Part shown: positions 26,998 through 47,441 of the stretch, piece by piece
How the letters are laid out: every line of letters begins with the position of its first letter
Numbering within the stretch: the stretch's first letter is position 1
From: Candidatus Woesearchaeota archaeon
GTDB taxonomy: Archaea; Nanobdellota; Nanobdellia; Woesearchaeales; UBA11576
Assembly (NCBI GenBank): GCA_018668595.1
Contig: JABJCP010000033.1
Span: 1 to 64,000 of the forward strand
Length of the DNA: 64,000 nucleotides
Direction: 5' to 3'
Notes under the pieces: model-generated
Seen by the model: the letters and a program-made list of their open reading frames with translations, nothing else
Database searches by the model: none
Told to the model about the DNA's origin: nothing
Translations under genes and position numbers: made by a program

Positions 26998-27720
26998 TTA
27001 TTTGAATGATCCTTTCCACAACATCTTAAAAAAACTGTTATAAGAATCTGCCGCTACCTTATTATAAATTAAAACACCCAGTGGTTTTTTTGTCCAAATG
27101 ATTATTCCTATTTTATTATTTCTAATTATTGTTTCAGTCAAAGGTTCAAAACCTATTGACGTATATCTAATTGTTGACTTAGGATATTTTGTTTCTGCTT
27201 TCCAAAATTGTAAAGATTCATTAAAAATAAGTTTAGCAACAATTCCTTTTTTTGCTCTTTTCTTATGATAATTTACCCACCATGCATCTCCCAACATCAA
27301 TGATTCTTTTGTTGAACCAAATGTATTGTGTTCAGTTCCACCCGCATCTAATAACTCCAAAAGTAACTCTTTAATTCCCCTTATTCCTCTAAAAGATATT
27401 ATTTCAGGTTTTTCTTTAGCAGTTTTTTGTTTTATGAGTAATTCTGGAAGAATTTCTTGGAATCTTTCCTTTTTATCATTAATAAATTCTATAATATGAT
27501 TTGGATCTGCTGCTTGATAATGATTTATTTTCCCTTCTTTAACAAATGTTACAAAACCTTTGTCAACCAACTTTTTAATGGTCATATGTACAACCGAATT
27601 TTGTAAGCCTGATTTTTCTAAGATAGGTCCTGCTGTTGATGTTCCTAATTCTAATAGAGCAAGATATATTTTTATCTCAGCATTTGTTAGTCCTATATCT
27701 TCTAATATTTTTGTGTCCAT
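26998..27720 (-). CDS. TrmB-family transcriptional regulator
   Basis: LEDIGLTNAEIKIYLALLELGTSTAGPILEKSGLQNSVVHMTIKKLVDKGFV; FRGIRGIKELL. Confidence 0.9.
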   Translation of the reverse strand: MDTKILEDIGLTNAEIKIYLALLELGTSTAGPILEKSGLQNSVVHMTIKKLVDKGFVTFVKEGKINHYQAADPNHIIEFINDKKERFQEILPELLIKQKTAKEKPEIISFRGIRGIKELLLELLDAGGTEHNTFGSTKESLMLGDAWWVNYHKKRAKKGIVAKLIFNESLQFWKAETKYPKSTIRYTSIGFEPLTETIIRNNKIGIIIWTKKPLGVLIYNKVAADSYNSFFKMLWKGSFK

Positions 27721-39453: not shown

Positions 39454-39705
39454 TTACAAAATAATTCTATAACTGCGCAACCTTGCCTTAATCACCCCCT
39501 CATGCATTAACTCAGGCACAGGTATGCCCCCTATAGTAACATTAATTGCTACCGCATCTTCTATCGTTTGTATATTCATTTGTTCATACATTTGAATTGC
39601 TTTATTTCCAAAATCAATTGCATTTTGGACATCAAATTTTTCTGCTGCAACAATTGCTTTCACATATAATCTCTCAGCAGAATCTTTAAGTTCTTCTTTT
39701 GTCAT
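39454..39705 (-). CDS. Small uncharacterised helical protein
   Basis: 83 aa, MTKEELKDSAERLYVKAIVAAEKFDVQNAIDFGNKAIQMYEQM; same-strand cluster. Confidence 0.6.
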   Translation of the reverse strand: MTKEELKDSAERLYVKAIVAAEKFDVQNAIDFGNKAIQMYEQMNIQTIEDAVAINVTIGGIPVPELMHEGVIKARLRSYRIIL

Positions 39706-39763
39706 TTTATTTTTCCTCCCTAATCTAGTTTTGCTTCATTGCGCCGTGCTCAATTTATAAAAA

Positions 39764-40189
39764 TTATCCAAACCTTGCCATAACCTTAACTAAATCTCCA
39801 CCATCTTTTTGCGAAAAACATTTTTTATATTCCAATCCTTCAAACTCTCCGTCTAAAACTTTAATAAAATATTCATCAGTTTTTCTTTCATAGTTTCTGA
39901 ATACTGGCTCCATACACTCAATTGAAAACTCAAATTCTCCAGTCATTTCAGATCCAGACTCTTCTATTTCATAATGAACATATCTAATTTTTGCGCCCTC
40001 TAATGCTTTTGAATGAACTCTAAAAGGAACTACTATTTCGTCTAAACCTTCATTGGTTTTTACATGAAAAATCGATTTTTCTAAACCCTCTTCTTCGAAT
40101 TTAACAACTGTTGCTTCTCCAATAAACGAAGTATAATTTGTTTTTCTAATCCCATTCAAATAAGATTCGTGTTTTTTTTCTCGTTTCAT
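39764..40189 (-). CDS. Uncharacterised protein
   Basis: 141-aa ORF, SD gaggtaaact upstream. Confidence 0.65.
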   Translation of the reverse strand: MKREKKHESYLNGIRKTNYTSFIGEATVVKFEEEGLEKSIFHVKTNEGLDEIVVPFRVHSKALEGAKIRYVHYEIEESGSEMTGEFEFSIECMEPVFRNYERKTDEYFIKVLDGEFEGLEYKKCFSQKDGGDLVKVMARFG

Positions 40190-40251
40190 TAGTTTACCTC
40201 ACAATCATTTTAGTTCAACCACCAAATAGTTGCTCATCCATCTAGTTTAGT

Positions 40252-40728
40252 TTATTTGACACGTCTAATATTCATAACTGTTTTTCTAACAAATCTTTGC
40301 AGTGGTTCGTATATGTTATCACAACCCATTTTACTAAGAACAATTATCAATCTGGCAAGTTCTTCTTTCTTATTTTCATCTCTTAATTTGAAAACTTGTT
40401 CTCCAAATTTTTCCATTATTTTTTTCTCATCACCATAAATTGCCGCAGCAAATTCGTATTGACCTAATTCCCTGAACTTATCGCCACAATTATTTAAAAT
40501 ATTTACTGGTGCGAATGATAATAATCCCTTATTTTTAAAAACAAGTTCAAAAGCATCCACATATTTTCCAGTAGTCAAAAGCTCACTAAAATTAGTCTGA
40601 ATCATCTGCAATTTATCTTGACGCTGCATTAATACAAGCTCTCCTAAATCCTCAGATAATTCTAATCCTTCTTGCCTCGCAATATCTTCTAATTTGTATT
40701 TAGGTAATTCAACAGGTAAAACATACAT
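40252..40728 (-). CDS. Uncharacterised helical-repeat-like protein
   Basis: 158-aa ORF; SD ggaggagat upstream. Confidence 0.65.
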   Translation of the reverse strand: MYVLPVELPKYKLEDIARQEGLELSEDLGELVLMQRQDKLQMIQTNFSELLTTGKYVDAFELVFKNKGLLSFAPVNILNNCGDKFRELGQYEFAAAIYGDEKKIMEKFGEQVFKLRDENKKEELARLIIVLSKMGCDNIYEPLQRFVRKTVMNIRRVK

Positions 40729-40745
40729 TTTTTATCTCCTCCATT

Positions 40746-41462
40746 TTACATTTTTTCATAAGCTTCTTGCAAAGCTTCTGCTATTTTACTTGCAATATAT
40801 CTTGGTTCATTTCTTAGCGACTCACAAATTTCTATTTGCATCGCATGATGATCTGTTCCTGCATGATATTGTATTCCTCTTTCTTGTTTCCACGCTGCAA
40901 AATATTTTCCAATCCATGCTCTTTTTCCTTTTTCTGTTTTCAATTCGCCATCTATTTTTCTTCTCATTTTTGCAGTCATTTCTATGTTGGCTCTGACCTT
41001 TCCACCACATCTTTTTCCAGTTTCAAAATCCACTGCTTCAGGATGATATTTTGCTCCTTGGTATTTTTTCTTTTTCTTATTCCATTTTGCACCAATTCCT
41101 ATATCTATTCCGTGATCTCCCCTGTTTTTCATTCCGTGTATGTGCACTATTACTGCGTGTTCGCATCCATCATGTTCTTTTGCAGAATATTGTTTTGCAT
41201 CCTCTGCTATTTCATCTATATCTCTGTAAAACCTATTTTTTCTAGAATTTAGTTCTATGTCTTTTATATTGTTCAAGTCACACTCAATTCTCTTGTATCT
41301 AGTATTGACTACAAACCCAGCACTCATTATTTTTGCAATCTCTTCTGCAATTTCTGCAGTCATTAAGTCGTCTTTTGCGCCATGAGTCGCTACAATCACA
41401 AACTTACTTTTACTTTGTTTTTTTGCGCCATACTCTGTTTGTACCCTATTATCTAATGTCAT
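40746..41462 (-). CDS. N-formylglutamate-amidohydrolase-like protein (tentative)
   Basis: VIVATHGAKDD, VNTRYKRIECDLN, VIVHIHGMKNRGDHGIDIGIG; distant pattern only. Confidence 0.45.
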   Translation of the reverse strand: MTLDNRVQTEYGAKKQSKSKFVIVATHGAKDDLMTAEIAEEIAKIMSAGFVVNTRYKRIECDLNNIKDIELNSRKNRFYRDIDEIAEDAKQYSAKEHDGCEHAVIVHIHGMKNRGDHGIDIGIGAKWNKKKKKYQGAKYHPEAVDFETGKRCGGKVRANIEMTAKMRRKIDGELKTEKGKRAWIGKYFAAWKQERGIQYHAGTDHHAMQIEICESLRNEPRYIASKIAEALQEAYEKM

Positions 41463-41515
41463 TTTTCACCTCTTACTAACTATCGAATAATGACTACTAA
41501 GAAGTACTTAATTAT

Positions 41516-41539
41516 TTGTTGTAGAAATATAAACAACAA
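41516..41539 (-). promoter_or_regulatory. Operator copy 1 (TTGTTGTAGAAATATAAACAACAA)
   Basis: 24-bp element shared with 42644, 46187, 47418; upstream of ORF 41462(-). Confidence 0.8.
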
Positions 41540-41608
41540 TACACAATAATAGAAATAATAAGATAATGTAAAATAAAACAAAATAAAACTATTACAATTT
41601 ACAATTAA

Positions 41609-41770
41609 TCAATCATACAATTCTTGTTTTACCAAATCATACAATTTCAATTCTTCTAAAAACTCGCTTTTATCCTTAATTAAATATTCTGCATTCAATA
41701 CTCCAAATTCTAAATCTTTTTTCCTCGCCTCAACCAAATCACACAAATATTTTTTCACTGTTTCATTCAT
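41609..41770 (-). CDS. Small uncharacterised protein (53 aa)
   Basis: MNETVKKYLCDLVEARKKDLEFGVLNAEYLIKDKSEFLEELKLYDLVKQELYD; below track cutoff; SD gggagg. Confidence 0.6.
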   Translation of the reverse strand: MNETVKKYLCDLVEARKKDLEFGVLNAEYLIKDKSEFLEELKLYDLVKQELYD

Positions 41771-41828
41771 TTTATCCCTCCCAAGTCTAGCTTAAACAAT
41801 TTCGAATTTAAAAAATCAGAAAATTAAT

Positions 41829-42353
41829 TTAACTCAAATGATCTAAAACCCTATTTGCTCTTTCTTCTATTGTTCCAAAACCTATTTTAACAAGATCATA
41901 ACCAAAATCAACATAAATTTGTTTTATTTTATTTCCTATCTTTAAAGCTTCATCTTCATTTTCTCGTCTGACTTCTGTTTTTTTTGTATGCCCTAACTGA
42001 TCAATTAAGAAAACTCCCGCATAATGAATTTTTTCGGATTCAGCTTTAATCTCCTTGTACTGCCAAGTTCCCATTTTTACATATGCAAGACCATCAAGTA
42101 GTCCTCTGTCTATGAATACTCTACTAACTCCTAAAGGAATTTTTCGTTCATAATCAATTTGTATTTTTAGAATTTGTATTTGAAAATCATCTTCAAGCCA
42201 AGGTTCATTTACTCCTTGTGCTTGTTTAAGTTTAATGTATTCTTCTGCTGCTTCAGGAATGACACATTCTCCTCTTTTTTTTAATTCCTCAATTATTGAA
42301 CTTTTTCCAGTTCCAGGTCCGCCTGTTAAAACATATTTTTTTATTTCAAACAC
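41829..42353 (-). CDS. P-loop NTPase (AAA_28-like)
   Basis: KKYVLTGGPGTGKSSIIEELKKRGECVIPEAAEEYI. Confidence 0.8.
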   Translation of the reverse strand: MFEIKKYVLTGGPGTGKSSIIEELKKRGECVIPEAAEEYIKLKQAQGVNEPWLEDDFQIQILKIQIDYERKIPLGVSRVFIDRGLLDGLAYVKMGTWQYKEIKAESEKIHYAGVFLIDQLGHTKKTEVRRENEDEALKIGNKIKQIYVDFGYDLVKIGFGTIEERANRVLDHLS

Positions 42354-42484
42354 CCATCAATTTAGTTTAAATATTCTTATAACTCAATTTATTAAATTTA
42401 ATCAATTTAATCAATTTAATCAATTTATTCTATTAATTTGATGAATTTGATTTATTATTTATTAAAGCAAAGATTATTTATTTT

Positions 42485-42607
42485 TTATTGCACAAGCCCT
42501 ATTAGTTTTAGTGCCACAAATCTTACTTTCTCTTGCGTCCACTCAGGGTGTACTTGTCTTACTCTAATCTGTGCTTCTTTCATTTCTTGAATTATTTTTT
42601 GGTCCAT
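42485..42607 (-). CDS. Small uncharacterised protein (40 aa)
   Basis: MDQKIIQEMKEAQIRVRQVHPEWTQEKVRFVALKLIGLVQ, immediately downstream of operator copy 2. Confidence 0.5.
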   Translation of the reverse strand: MDQKIIQEMKEAQIRVRQVHPEWTQEKVRFVALKLIGLVQ

Positions 42608-42643
42608 CTTAATTATTAGATAAGACCTAAATTATATCAATAC

Positions 42644-42667
42644 TTGTTGTAGAACAATCAACAACAA
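42644..42667 (-). promoter_or_regulatory. Operator copy 2 (TTGTTGTAGAACAATCAACAACAA)
   Basis: Same 24-bp element, followed on minus strand by GATATAATTT. Confidence 0.8.
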
Positions 42668-42686
42668 ACAAAGGATCATCAAATAA

Positions 42687-43514
42687 TCAATTCAATCTAT
42701 TAATCGCTTCAACTAAAGATGCTACTTTCTCATCATCAATTTCATTTTTCCAAAAACCATCTTTCTTAAAAAATGATCCAACAATAAAAAGATCTGCATC
42801 TTGAAACAAGTGAATATTTTTATCAGTTATTCCAGATCCTACTAACACAGAAACCTTAACCTTTAACTTAACAGAACTAACCTCTTCAGGCGATGCTTCT
42901 TTTCCAGTACTAGTTCCTGTAATTATCAAACCATCTGATAAAAAGAATTCTGCAGTGTGTGCAGTTTCTAAAAGATCTACATCAGAAGTTATTGCATGTG
43001 ATGAATGTTTCTTTTTTATATCTGTGAAAACAAGAACATTTTCTGCACCTATTTGTTTTCTATACCTCAGTAAGTCTCCTGCACAGGATTCAATGTAGCC
43101 TTCATCTGCAACATGCGCGTAAACAAATCCTTCGACGCGAATAAAATCAAGATCTGCTGCTTTTGCTACAGCCAGTGCTTCTTTATTTGCAGCAGCAAGT
43201 ATTTGTATCCCACAATAAAGTCCTAGATTTTTTATTTCTTTACCAATTACTGCCATCAAAGCAGTTACTTCAGGACCAATATTTTTAGTGTAAGGAATAT
43301 CATGCATGTTTTCAATAGCAACAATGTTTATTCCACATTTCAAATATAATTTTGCTTCCTCAATTGCTTTGTCAATAATTTCCTGAGAACTCAATTTATT
43401 ACAAGGTGTTCCTGGTAAAGCCTGGACGTGAATCATTCCAATAATTGATTTATTTCCATTAATATATTCTTTAAATTTCATTATAACCACCCTTACACCC
43501 TCCCCTAATTTCAA
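42687..43514 (-). CDS. BtpA/SgcQ-family TIM-barrel protein
   Basis: IGMIHVQALPGTP, ENMHDIPYTKNIGPEVTALM, GSGITDKN. Confidence 0.88.
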   Translation of the reverse strand: MKLGEGVRVVIMKFKEYINGNKSIIGMIHVQALPGTPCNKLSSQEIIDKAIEEAKLYLKCGINIVAIENMHDIPYTKNIGPEVTALMAVIGKEIKNLGLYCGIQILAAANKEALAVAKAADLDFIRVEGFVYAHVADEGYIESCAGDLLRYRKQIGAENVLVFTDIKKKHSSHAITSDVDLLETAHTAEFFLSDGLIITGTSTGKEASPEEVSSVKLKVKVSVLVGSGITDKNIHLFQDADLFIVGSFFKKDGFWKNEIDDEKVASLVEAINRLN

Positions 43515-43519
43515 ATCAT

Positions 43520-44116
43520 CTATTTATTCCAAGCACCATATTCAAAAATATCTATGCCAAACTTATTTAACATTTGAACTAATTTATGAAGCGGAAGTCC
43601 GATAACATTCGAGTTACAACCTTCAAGTTTCTCGACGAATACTGCACCCCTTCCCTGTATTGCAAATGCTCCTGCTTTATCAAGAGGCTCACCTGTTGCA
43701 ACATATTGTTCAATATCTTTTTTTGACATTTTGCGCATTTTTACTTTAGTTAATTCATAGTCGACTAATTCTTTTCCAGTTGATGCATCAATGATAGCAA
43801 CACCTGAATAAATTTTTAAAACCTTACCTGATATTTTTCTCAGAGTTTTTTTGGCAACATCTGCAGTATGTGGTTTTCCAATTCTGTGTTTTCCCAAAAC
43901 AATAAATGTATCAACTCCAATTACAATTCCTGATTTTAATCGATCTGCAACATCTACTGCTTTTCCACGAGCAAGCACCATCGCAAGTTTATGCGGTAAC
44001 AAATCTAGAGTCATATCTTCTTCATAATTACTTGGAACTATTTTAAATTCTAATCCTATTTGCTGTAATAATCCTTTTCGTCGAGGACTTGTTGATGCTA
44101 GAATTATTTCTTTCAT
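43520..44116 (-). CDS. maf: Maf-like nucleotide pyrophosphatase
   Basis: ILASTSPRRKGLLQQIGLEF, GVDTFIVL, AGAFAIQGRGAVFVEKLEGCNSNVIGLPLHKL. Confidence 0.93.
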   Translation of the reverse strand: MKEIILASTSPRRKGLLQQIGLEFKIVPSNYEEDMTLDLLPHKLAMVLARGKAVDVADRLKSGIVIGVDTFIVLGKHRIGKPHTADVAKKTLRKISGKVLKIYSGVAIIDASTGKELVDYELTKVKMRKMSKKDIEQYVATGEPLDKAGAFAIQGRGAVFVEKLEGCNSNVIGLPLHKLVQMLNKFGIDIFEYGAWNK

Positions 44117-44155
44117 TTTATTACCTCCTAAGTTATTGTTTTTATATTTATCTAT

Positions 44156-45112
44156 TTAATTTTTATGTAAGTATGTATTGCAAAGGCACATTACCTCCTT
44201 TTTACCATTTTTATTAAATTTGACATTAAATGCAATTGGATTTTTTGCAACTTTATCAATGCTTGAGTCAAACATTCCAATTCTTTGATTATTAGGACGC
44301 ATTAGTTCAAGCATATCTCTTACTTGTTGAACTAATTCATAATCTGTTAATGGTCTATTTTTCCCTCTGTCAATCTCCCCTTGCATTCTTCTTGCATAGA
44401 GGGTTTTTGGAGTTGGATTAACTGCCATCAGCGTGATAAATTTAGCATTTGTTTCATTTAGTAATAATGCTGTTTCAGCCACATGGGGTTCATAATGTTT
44501 AATCCCTCCTAATCCAGGCATAATCATTACTGATAATTCCATATCACTGTCATGTGCAATCTCTACAGCATTTAACATTTGATTTTTTGTAGTTCCTTTA
44601 TTGACATAATTTAACACATCATCAGATCCTGATTCAATTCCCCAATATACTAAGTTTAATCCCTCTCTTCTAAGATTACTTATTTTTGTTCTGCCCTTCT
44701 CCACAATTGCATCTGCCCTACCATATGTTGCGATTCCTTTTAGATCAAAATCATTTGTTATTCTTTCAATTGCATTTAGTAATGTGCTCTGCTGAGCTTG
44801 CAAGGCATTGCCCCCACCAATGAACACTTTTCTAATATTGTGTCCATAGTCATTGAGCGTTTCAAGCACTCCCCTATAATGATTCATGAATTCATCAAAT
44901 GATTTTTCGGTAAAGCGCACTAAATTATATCTATTACAATATGTGCATCTTTGAAAATCACAACCAGTAGTTAATTCCAGCATCAACGCATGTGGTTGGC
45001 GTTCAGAGGGTGGAAATAACATATCAGGAGAACTATACAAATCTGGATTAGAGTATACCTCTGCTAATTCATGTGATAAATTTATTGTTTTTTTATTCAT
45101 TTTTCTTCTCAA
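44156..45112 (-). CDS. Radical SAM protein
   Basis: MLELTTGCDFQRCTYCNRYNLVRF, VFIGGGNAL, LVYWGIESGSDDVLNYVNKG, MIMPGLGG. Confidence 0.9.
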   Translation of the reverse strand: MRRKMNKKTINLSHELAEVYSNPDLYSSPDMLFPPSERQPHALMLELTTGCDFQRCTYCNRYNLVRFTEKSFDEFMNHYRGVLETLNDYGHNIRKVFIGGGNALQAQQSTLLNAIERITNDFDLKGIATYGRADAIVEKGRTKISNLRREGLNLVYWGIESGSDDVLNYVNKGTTKNQMLNAVEIAHDSDMELSVMIMPGLGGIKHYEPHVAETALLLNETNAKFITLMAVNPTPKTLYARRMQGEIDRGKNRPLTDYELVQQVRDMLELMRPNNQRIGMFDSSIDKVAKNPIAFNVKFNKNGKKEVMCLCNTYLHKN

Positions 45113-45845
45113 TTTCTAATATCAAATCTAAATTCTCCCACAACATCTTTAATTTCCATCCATCATTTTCACCATCAAAAATATCTGCATTATCACGACT
45201 TAATCGAGCAAATATCGCATTTTCAATACCTAATTTATTCTGGTTTCTCTGACGAGAATCCATAGCACCATACATTTCTAATTTTTCTTCTCTACCAAGT
45301 AATTTTTCTCCCTTTTTTTCAAAATAATTTTTTATTAATTTTTTTTCATGTTCAGCATATCCAACTAATTTGTCCCCTTCGTTTAGTTCATTTTCTACAA
45401 TTTTTCTAAGAGTGTCTCTTCCTCCGCAATCAGACCAAATAATAGACAATTCATTTTCTTTAGCAAATTCTTGTTTTTTATTTTTACTGCAGTCACACGC
45501 TACCAACACAACATTTGTTTTCATTCCTTGTTCAACCATATTTTTAATATATTCAAATGCTGGACCTGCACCATTAGCACCTAAATAAAAATAACATCTA
45601 TCAATCCTATTGGCAAAAGATTTTCTTTCGTTTTCTGCAGATTCATAAGCAAATTTTACTTGTTCACTAGTTGCAGTTAATTGCCCACCAAATGTTTCTC
45701 CAGTACGCCAACTTTCTTCTAAGCCAGATACTTCAGCACCAGTTATAATCACATTTCTTTCAAAACCTTCATGATATCCCTTACTAAAACCATCAACTCC
45801 ACGATATGTTACAACATAAGTTATTGGTTTCTCTTCAATTTCCAT
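45093..45845 (-). CDS. Uncharacterised protein upstream of radical SAM gene
   Basis: 250-aa ORF overlapping the start of the radical SAM gene; SD gaggg upstream. Confidence 0.7.
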   Translation of the reverse strand: MEIEEKPITYVVTYRGVDGFSKGYHEGFERNVIITGAEVSGLEESWRTGETFGGQLTATSEQVKFAYESAENERKSFANRIDRCYFYLGANGAGPAFEYIKNMVEQGMKTNVVLVACDCSKNKKQEFAKENELSIIWSDCGGRDTLRKIVENELNEGDKLVGYAEHEKKLIKNYFEKKGEKLLGREEKLEMYGAMDSRQRNQNKLGIENAIFARLSRDNADIFDGENDGWKLKMLWENLDLILEIEKKNE

Positions 45846-45898
45846 TTCAATCCCTCCTAAAAAACCTAACTAATTCACAAAATCAAAAACTAAAAAAA

Positions 45899-46123
45899 TT
45901 AAAAACTCAATTGTTTTCTATAAAAACCTCTTGCTGCAAAATAGCAATTTCTTGCTTGATCTCTATACTCTGCTTTTTTCCGCATATTTATCTCGCCAAG
46001 ATATTGTTCTCGTCTAAGATCTCCTGCTTCTAGCATCAGCTGTTCTTTTGTTTTCAAATCTTTTGTTGCTTTTACAACACTAAAAATATTGTTTATGGTT
46101 TGTTCTATGCTTGTTTGTTCCAT
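45899..46123 (-). CDS. Small uncharacterised helical protein
   Basis: Likely start MEQTSIEQTINNIFSVVKATKDLKTKEQ within the 79-aa track ORF; SD ggaggg. Confidence 0.6.
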   Translation of the reverse strand: MEQTSIEQTINNIFSVVKATKDLKTKEQLMLEAGDLRREQYLGEINMRKKAEYRDQARNCYFAARGFYRKQLSF

Positions 46124-46186
46124 TTTCCCACCCTCCAAAAAGTTAATTTGCTTCTATCTAAGAAAACCTTGCTCAAATATAACATC

Positions 46187-46210
46187 TTGTTGTAGAAACT
46201 CAAACAACAG
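46187..46210. promoter_or_regulatory. Operator copy 3 (TTGTTGTAGAAACTCAAACAACAG) in divergent promoter
   Basis: Flanked on each side by TATA-like boxes (minus TTATATTT; plus TTATTTATA). Confidence 0.85.
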
Positions 46211-46244
46211 AAACTTATTTATACCATAACAACATTCAAACCCG

Positions 46245-46979
46245 TTGGAGGAAGATATTATGCAAAAAATCGAAACTGTTCTTGAAAACGTAGGATTTAG
46301 TCCTAATGAAATTAAAATTTATCTCACACTTAATGATCATGGATCATGTAAAGCAGGAAAAATTGCAAAGATTGCAAAAATAGATCGTAGTAGCTGTTAT
46401 AATTCAATAAAAAAATTAATAGAAAAAGGACTTGTAAGTTATGTTTGTATAGGAAAAGTTAAATGGTTTCAAGCAACAGGTCCAAAAAGAATTCTTGATT
46501 TCCTAAAAGAACAAGAAGAAGATGTTAAAGAAATTATGCCTGAGCTCGACGCAAGACATAAAATGAGCAAACTCCAGGGCCAAGTCCGAATGTTCAAAGG
46601 TTTTAAAGGAGTACGAACAATTTTCCAAGATATTATTGCAACAGAAAAAGAAAATATTGTTTTTGGTAATGAAGGACAATTAGAAGAACGAATGCCAGCT
46701 TATCAAAAACAATTTGTAAGACAACTAAAAGAAAAAAATCTAAAAGTAAGAACTATTGTTCGAGAAGATAGAGATACAAAAACTTCAAATCCTAAATTAA
46801 CTAGATTTGTTCCAAAAACAGTTGAGTCTCCTGTTGTTACAAATATTTATGGAGATAAAATCGCATTAATAATTTGGACTGATGATCCTGAAGGGATAAT
46901 AATTGAAAATGAAGCTGCTGCAAAAGCATATAGAAGTTACTTTGAATTTATGTGGAAACATGCTAAAAAGAAAAAATGA
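46245..46979 (+). CDS. TrmB-family transcriptional regulator
   Basis: LENVGFSPNEIKIYLTLNDHGSCKAGKIAKIAKIDRSSCYNSIKKLIEKGLVSYV; probable start MQKIETVL at 46260. Confidence 0.9.
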   Translation: MEEDIMQKIETVLENVGFSPNEIKIYLTLNDHGSCKAGKIAKIAKIDRSSCYNSIKKLIEKGLVSYVCIGKVKWFQATGPKRILDFLKEQEEDVKEIMPELDARHKMSKLQGQVRMFKGFKGVRTIFQDIIATEKENIVFGNEGQLEERMPAYQKQFVRQLKEKNLKVRTIVREDRDTKTSNPKLTRFVPKTVESPVVTNIYGDKIALIIWTDDPEGIIIENEAAAKAYRSYFEFMWKHAKKKK

Positions 46980-47219: not shown

Positions 47220-47381
47220 CTATTCGCTTCCTTTTATTTCTGTTATCACTCTATTAACTACCAGTCCAACTTTTACTCCATAATTATTTGCCACTTCTAT
47301 TTGTCCACCGTATTTTATTTGATCTATTGCTCCTACTAGGCTGCAGGCACTCATTCCAAGGTCATTTATTGTTTGTTTCAT
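47220..47381 (-). CDS. Small uncharacterised protein (53 aa)
   Basis: MKQTINDLGMSACSLVGAIDQIKYGGQIEVANNYGVKVGLVVNRVITEIKGSE, downstream of operator copy 4. Confidence 0.55.
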   Translation of the reverse strand: MKQTINDLGMSACSLVGAIDQIKYGGQIEVANNYGVKVGLVVNRVITEIKGSE

Positions 47382-47417
47382 CTTATTATATACAGAATAT
47401 TCTAACTATATAACAAT

Positions 47418-47441
47418 TTGTTGTAGAAAATAAAACAACAA
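47418..47441 (-). promoter_or_regulatory. Operator copy 4 (TTGTTGTAGAAAATAAAACAACAA)
   Basis: Same 24-bp element, followed on minus strand by TTATATAG. Confidence 0.8.

Follow-up and report, generated by a model that had tools for sequence, protein, structure and literature searches.

A probable TrmB-family regulon with a conserved 40-residue microprotein as its most recurrent target in Woesearchaeota and allied DPANN archaea

Introduction

In the characterised members of the TrmB family of archaeal regulators, the outcome of binding varies with the position of the site relative to the transcription factor B recognition element (BRE) and TATA box: sites upstream of these are associated with activation, sites downstream with repression (PMC4158304, PMC9426492), and Pyrococcus TrmB represses malE through a site at the BRE/TATA itself (PMC4158304). 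The family also includes the thiol-based regulator OxsR of Haloferax volcanii, a single domain of ~120 residues that recognises a CG-rich site and carries Cys24 at its helix dimer interface (PMC9426492). Here, we describe a locus within a 64,000-nucleotide stretch of DNA from a Candidatus Woesearchaeota archaeon (contig JABJCP010000033.1, positions 1 to 64,000; hereafter ‘the window’), which carries four copies of a palindromic operator, a gene for a TrmB-family protein and a series of short operons, one of which encodes a 40-residue microprotein that we call w40. Judging from sequence, this is probably the home locus of a TrmB-family regulon that has not been described before and that Woesearchaeota share with other, allied DPANN archaea.

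The source genome comprises 2.3 Mb in 45 contigs. An initial annotation had marked positions 39,454 to 46,123 as a possible undescribed system with a radical SAM enzyme at its centre. The open reading frames (ORFs) that it listed are all present at the coordinates given, and we found no described regulon to which they belong; the radical SAM protein, however, does not hold the central place that it was given. The set also extends past the right-hand end of that interval, to the TrmB gene (46260-46979), a further operator at 47419 and the gene for a 53-residue protein (47220-47381).

Results

The element that defines the locus is a 22-bp palindrome, TGTTGTAGAA-N2-TTCTACAACA, with four copies in the genome, all of them in the window locus, where they sit at four minus-strand promoters and at the divergently oriented TrmB-family gene. 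Operator 1 (41517..41538) belongs to the promoter of an operon that begins with a gene for a protein resembling N-formylglutamate amidohydrolase (FGase), and has a TATA-like box at ~41505-41512 (-); operator 2 (42645..42666; TATA-like box ~42633-42640, -) belongs to the promoter of the w40 gene; operator 3 (46188..46209) stands between trmB and the gene for a 79-residue protein, with TATA-like boxes on both sides (~46176-46183, -, and ~46215-46225, +); and operator 4 (47419..47440; TATA-like box ~47407-47414, -) belongs to the promoter of the 53-residue protein gene at 47220. The shared operator proposed in the initial annotation is thus borne out: the window has four matches to the pattern TTGTTGTAGAA-N5-AACAACA, against none in 100 shuffles and none elsewhere in the 2.3-Mb genome, as scanned with this exact pattern and not with a weight matrix. 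The four copies in the window share one asymmetry: the intact half-site points toward the minus-strand targets and the weaker half toward trmB.

In relatives, the element takes the form of a full palindrome, TGTTGTAGAANNTTCTACAACA. A weight matrix built from 29 sites gives the four window operators scores of 24-31 bits, with no further site in the window down to 13 bits and none in the reversed window. At ≥18 bits, the same matrix finds 49 sites in 517 kb of sequence and none in the reversed-sequence control. At this threshold, an operator lies within 100 bp upstream of 27 of the 37 TrmB orthologs on named contigs and within 1.9 kb of 32 of them, counts that are descriptive since the matrix sites derive in part from the same genomes; the search for the microprotein, given below, serves as the independent test. 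Gene-neighbourhood conservation, which the initial annotation had suggested as a check, holds in relatives for the operator and for the neighbourhood linked to it.

The regulator itself is encoded on the plus strand at 46260..46979 (239 residues from the ATG at 46260, in an ORF that opens with TTG at 46245). It matches PF01978 with an E-value of 5.3e-13 (49.1 bits against a cut-off of 25.6), with no effector domain recognised by Pfam behind the winged helix, and its DNA-binding half matches the solved TrmB structure 3qph. Orthologs that are 57-79% identical occur on 37 named Woesearchaeota/Pacearchaeota contigs, from metagenome-assembled genomes titled Woesearchaeota, Pacearchaeota, ‘Nanoarchaeota’ or archaeon. 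The source genome yields 32 TrmB-like matches in all (E 0.001), and the other TrmB-like genes are no more than 37% identical among the matches listed; one such paralog, 32% identical, lies in the window at 26998-27720. Many columns of the ortholog alignment are invariant, including IDRSSCY with Cys51 in the presumed recognition helix. Tyr50 is a DNA contact in Pyrococcus TrmB (PMC4158304), and the tyrosine of IDRSSCY, placed by eye, sits roughly at the position expected for it. The co-occurrence of operator and ortholog makes TrmB the likely binder of the operator.

The operator has a preferred place relative to the promoter. Among 63 operator-to-gene directions, 23 have their best TATA-like octamer beginning exactly 5 bp from the edge of the operator, far more than at any other position, and bases +5 to +12 from that edge show a TTTATATA-like profile. 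Each of the window’s four minus-strand promoters has its TATA-like octamer at +5 to +12, and that of the trmB promoter lies a few bases beyond. It thus seems likely that a single site switches both members of a divergent gene pair.

The gene most often found under the operator is that for w40 (42485..42607, minus strand), whose product carries the motif HPxWxQxKxxWxAxxxL. Starting from the window protein, an iterative profile search that took no account of operator positions was run over the ORFs of 52 sequences in all six frames; each of the 12 members recovered has an operator within 370 bp, and ten of them start 8-61 bp from an operator centre. When the profile was run against 352 whole genomes of the order, 11 of 13 strong matches (E <1e-9) had an operator within 1.5 kb, against none of seven weak matches (E >1e-4). 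Seven of those 11 genomes had already served in building the models; in the six genomes that had not, the operator is present in four (G308, G351, G108 and G099). Pfam returns no convincing match to w40, which appears to represent a new microprotein family.

The remaining genes under the window operators, all on the minus strand, were named through Pfam and NCBIfam, and most of the listed ORFs are preceded by a Shine-Dalgarno-like sequence. Four interval proteins receive firm family names. The AAA_28 P-loop NTPase (174 residues, 41829..42353), already recognised as such in the initial annotation, matches PF13521 at E 1.9e-31 (109.9 bits against a gathering threshold of 27), and is also the exception among otherwise weak PHROG matches of the locus proteins, being assigned there as ‘thymidylate kinase’. 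The radical SAM protein (44156..45100) matches PF04055 at E 5.9e-13, with the cluster motif CX4CX2C. A Maf-family nucleotide pyrophosphatase (43520..44116) and a BtpA/SgcQ-family protein (42687..43514; TIGR00259, E 3.9e-57) belong to the same operon as the radical SAM gene, and were missing from the gene list of the initial annotation. Behind operator 3, the first gene is the 79-residue ORF (45899..46123; its probable start, ATG at 46123, gives 74 residues), a 57% identical relative of which lies inside an operator-headed operon of L076. The two 53-residue proteins, w53a (41609..41770) and w53b (47220..47381, behind operator 4), each have a relative in a genome of the same genus (G001), w53a at the equivalent position and w53b, at 47% identity, at the equivalent place behind an operator. 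The FGase-like operon continues with a 158-residue protein (40252..40728), placed by operon position and a Shine-Dalgarno-like sequence, and a 141-residue protein (39764..40189), placed by operon position; relatives of these two were sought and none were found. An 83-residue protein (39454..39705), whose relatives share a C-terminal motif of the type GIxxPxxMHxxVxK, has relatives in three other loci, two of them at an operator.

The FGase-like protein (238 residues, 40746..41462) had been named from distant motifs, and here the sequence remains weak while the predicted fold is supportive. It matches PF05908 (poly-gamma-glutamate hydrolase) below the cut-off (E 0.003, 17.5 bits against a gathering threshold of 22), as do, weakly, all four members of the family. 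An AlphaFold model built on the four sequences has a mean predicted local distance difference test (pLDDT) score of 71; plain Foldseek gave no significant match to it, and VIA-align, a realignment of Foldseek’s 1000 best chains, placed 2odf (Z 9.8), 5onj (Z 7.1) and 21dc (Z 6.5) above unrelated chains from 5.8 down, with 163, 145 and 151 aligned residues, respectively, at a root-mean-square deviation of 3.5-3.8. We take 2odf (entry title Atu2144) to be a member of the FGase family. The modelled fold thus points to an N-formylglutamate/poly-gamma-glutamate (PGA) amidohydrolase, and His27, Asp31, Asp32, His109 and Glu211, invariant among the members, are consistent with a putative metal amidohydrolase. 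The gene is at an operator or in its neighbourhood in four of the six genomes that have it.

The 250-residue protein (45093..45845), regarded previously as the partner of the radical SAM enzyme, proves to be a real family but one with other companions. It consists of a conserved N-terminal domain of ~145 residues and a private C-terminal extension; the family, present in seven of 352 genomes, is represented elsewhere by proteins of 145-147 residues, and its companions are the operator, receiver domains, the 83-residue protein or the FGase-like protein, not radical SAM. A direct search for it in the genome’s contigs and 59 relatives was empty because its homologs are short and divergent, and a profile search recovered them. 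Pfam gave no convincing match for this protein or for the tiny proteins of the interval. Its model (mean pLDDT 65) gives no clear fold assignment, the matches being mostly to GTPase-like folds (best Foldseek E 0.004, best VIA-align Z 7.8); an impression of receiver-domain likeness was not confirmed by the structure searches. Neither the FGase-like nor the 250-residue family is tied exclusively to the operator, because relatives of one or the other that lie outside the TrmB locus (G195, G035, G189, G317) have no operator nearby.

Counted over loci, the cargo under the operator includes AAA_28 in nine, the 250-residue family in four (L073, L097, L102 and the window), Maf in four (Maf also at L075, L090 and L105), dCTP deaminase in four, the FGase-like, UMP-kinase-like, receiver and 83-residue proteins in three each (the receiver count comes from one reference sequence alone) and the 79-residue protein in two. 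Gene order varies, with the 250-residue family followed by the FGase-like gene in L073 and preceded by the 83-residue gene in L102. The G001 locus retains the FGase-like, 53-residue, 40-residue, TrmB and second 53-residue genes with two operators, and at this place has no radical SAM, 250-residue or AAA_28 gene; against this smaller set, the window is an enlarged version.

In relatives, the cargo takes in receiver-domain proteins (PF00072, below cut-off), dCTP deaminase, AA_kinase (UMP-kinase-like), UPRTase and Ocnus-family proteins (PF05005, E 4e-15). The last of these, archaeal Janus/Ocnus members related to phosphohistidine phosphatases, stand beside or under the operator (L058:2777-3130, L076:2503-2892, L057:210), and the L058 gene adjoins a receiver-domain protein. 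Elsewhere (L017:14252-17321, the same as L078), AAA_28 behind an operator is followed by three tandem paralogs of a 290-390-residue family that has no assigned name. Other clusters encode ThiF/E1, a proteasomal-type AAA protein with an OB domain and a JAB-like protein (Prok-JAB, E 0.0016, below cut-off), together with small proteins that, on reading their sequences, seem ubiquitin-like and others that seem E2-like. In five genomes (G206, G049, G189, G192 and G154), such ubiquitin-like conjugation clusters are headed by the operator and a TATA-like box at +5; four of these genomes have a TrmB ortholog, and G049 has none at the cut-off used. The operator-headed clusters (L059:2238-10090, L067:1659-9650, L063:2948-9604, L056:12149-15962, L055:282-2092) have AAA proteins of proteasomal or ClpX-like type. 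The window genome has at least five E1/ThiF-like loci of its own, on contigs C40, C9, C14, C44 and C26 (L133-L139), at which the operator is absent.

The radical SAM gene overlaps the 250-residue gene by 8 nt, as described before (most likely start ATG 45100), and the overlap suggests that the two are co-translated. Among 57 other near genomes, one holds a relative of the radical SAM protein, at 29% identity; relatives elsewhere in the phylum (34-41%) correspond to the C-terminal portion of proteins of 780-880 residues, and none was seen at the operators of other genomes. These large DPANN proteins, partly in tandem copies (L127:175-2511, L130:1291-3918), join an N-terminal part of ~480 residues without a family name to a C-terminal radical SAM domain with CX4CX2C. 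Compared with maturase families of ribosomally synthesised and post-translationally modified peptides (RiPPs), the window protein scores 18.5 bits with TIGR03975, against a cut-off of 281.85. We read it as what appears to be a local addition to the locus.

Discussion

Synthesising these observations, we propose that a TrmB dimer probably binds the 22-bp palindrome abutting the BRE/TATA of each controlled promoter, its own included, and that binding would switch a number of short operons at once. In this model, the 40-residue microprotein is the output that stays constant, and around it lineages would exchange cargo, such as the AAA_28 NTPase, the amidohydrolase with an FGase/PGA-hydrolase fold, the 250-residue family, 83-residue proteins, Maf and others, to which the window may have added its radical SAM enzyme by local acquisition. 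As for the direction of control, we lean modestly toward a regulator that acts mainly as an activator, since the operator stands upstream of the BRE/TATA, as it does for TrmB-family activators (PMC4158304, PMC9426492).

Several observations weigh against the proposed regulon, or at least against its details. Five of the 37 TrmB orthologs have no strong site within 1.9 kb upstream, some of these being at contig ends, and in six operator-bearing genomes (G049, G191, G124, G242, G099 and G308) no close ortholog of TrmB passes the cut-off that was applied. UMP kinase, dCTP deaminase and Maf may be mere old housekeeping neighbours, and the cargo varies too much for one common physiological role to be established. 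Repression is also nearly as plausible as activation because the operator edge reaches the BRE: a TrmB dimer beside the TATA box could block transcription factor B and the TATA-binding protein until a ligand or oxidant freed the whole set, trmB with it. Repressors typically have autoregulated operators, a site at the BRE/TATA is what Pyrococcus TrmB uses to repress malE (PMC4158304), and the invariant Cys51 of the presumed recognition helix fits this model too; yet all window sites are upstream of the BRE/TATA, the placement associated with activation in the characterised proteins (PMC4158304, PMC9426492), and we hold repression to be a serious contender at somewhat under an even chance.

Other explanations do without a TrmB switch of this kind, or give it another purpose. 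That the repeats and their neighbours were kept by descent alone, with no regulon at all, gains something from the recurrence of Maf, UMP kinase and dCTP deaminase as plain neighbours, but operators also occur on other contigs, before different operons (G206, G154), the TATA spacing is a preferred one, and the w40 gene predicts an operator in genomes outside the training set; we find this reading scarcely credible. The suggestion that one of the tiny proteins is a RiPP-like substrate of the radical SAM enzyme, acting with the 250-residue protein, has in its favour the radical SAM domain, the overlapping genes and the numerous tiny genes close by. Against it, no other operator locus has the enzyme’s gene, nor does G001, while the 40-residue protein, other tiny proteins and the 250-residue family are all conserved where it is lacking; w40, the one tiny protein that is widely conserved, is present in genomes that lack the enzyme, no RiPP-maturase match comes near a curated cut-off, and the closest relatives of the enzyme are parts of much larger proteins. 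On its rarity, its absence from operators and these fused relatives we rejected radical SAM plus peptide substrate as a conserved system, and regard such modification here as very unlikely. A defence or conflict island, meaning an antiviral or inter-cell programme of nucleotide depletion and ubiquitin-like tagging with fast exchange of cargo, would suit a constant regulator with variable cargo and a dCTP deaminase in four loci, and in relatives the E1 protein matches the PADLOC E1-E2 models and the AAA protein of the same clusters the IetA/TRIP13 models. These AAA and ThiF matches are generic, however, the four window proteins compared with PADLOC gave no match at E 0.01, a relative’s dCTP deaminase has none either and may be housekeeping, and viral contigs hold no close relative of TrmB; we consider this reading improbable. 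The 250-residue protein likewise has no close relative on viral contigs, and a viral origin was rejected on these two results.

If the TrmB-family regulon is taken as the working model, we speculate that the set serves in a response to stress or in quality control, with nucleotide clean-up and, in relatives, protein tagging, although we offer this as a tentative suggestion. A wider proposal, which we think doubtful, is a DPANN-wide response in which the TrmB switch drives a 40-residue effector or adaptor alongside machinery that differs between lineages (nucleotide enzymes, an amide hydrolase, orphan receiver domains and, in several genomes, an operon for ubiquitin-like tagging and an AAA unfoldase), forming a programme of protein/nucleotide quality control or conflict that has no described counterpart.

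Little appears to have been described of how DPANN archaea regulate their genes, and the locus offers a precise operator, a likely regulator, a promoter rule (the TATA-like box at +5) and what appears to be a new microprotein family. It also ties ubiquitin-like operons of archaea, as well as orphan receiver domains, to this one switch, such that genes without an assigned role can be grouped by shared control. In the literature covered, from which subscription papers and preprints were mostly absent, we found no TrmB regulon described for Woesearchaeota and no regulon of this make-up.

Compared with described systems, the FGase-like protein shares its modelled fold with the FGase/PGA hydrolases (Atu2144, 2odf; YndL, 5onj; phage PM1 hydrolase, 21dc), its invariant H, D/D, H and E residues being compatible with a metal amidohydrolase, and differs in falling below the Pfam cut-off and in its intracellular archaeal setting. 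The likeness to prokaryotic ubiquitin-like operons (E1-E2-JAB; ‘E1-E2’ in PADLOC) is confined to relatives, with their operator-headed ThiF/E1, JAB-like and AAA genes and those read as ubiquitin-like and E2-like; such genes are absent at the window operators, and the E1 genes of the window genome lie elsewhere, free of operators. With OxsR, the regulator has in common the TrmB family, a motif upstream of the BRE/TATA, which in OxsR serves activation, and a conserved cysteine in the DNA-binding half, but the window TrmB group is ~240 residues long, with its invariant Cys51 (IDRSSC) in the presumed recognition helix, and does not fall within the OxsR type. Parallels are also seen with the TrmB-family regulons described in Thermococcales and haloarchaea (Pyrococcus TrmB/TrmBL1, Thermococcus Tgr and Halobacterium VNG1451C; PMC4158304, PMC4706686), which share the TrmB-type winged-helix DNA-binding half, palindromic sites set relative to the BRE/TATA, the regulator gene as a target and several operons per site. 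No genes of sugar transport, sugar metabolism or glycolysis are among the families found at the operators; the regulon proposed here differs in its 22-bp palindrome, in its 40-residue microprotein and in a cargo of NTPase, amidohydrolase, receiver and ubiquitin-like proteins.

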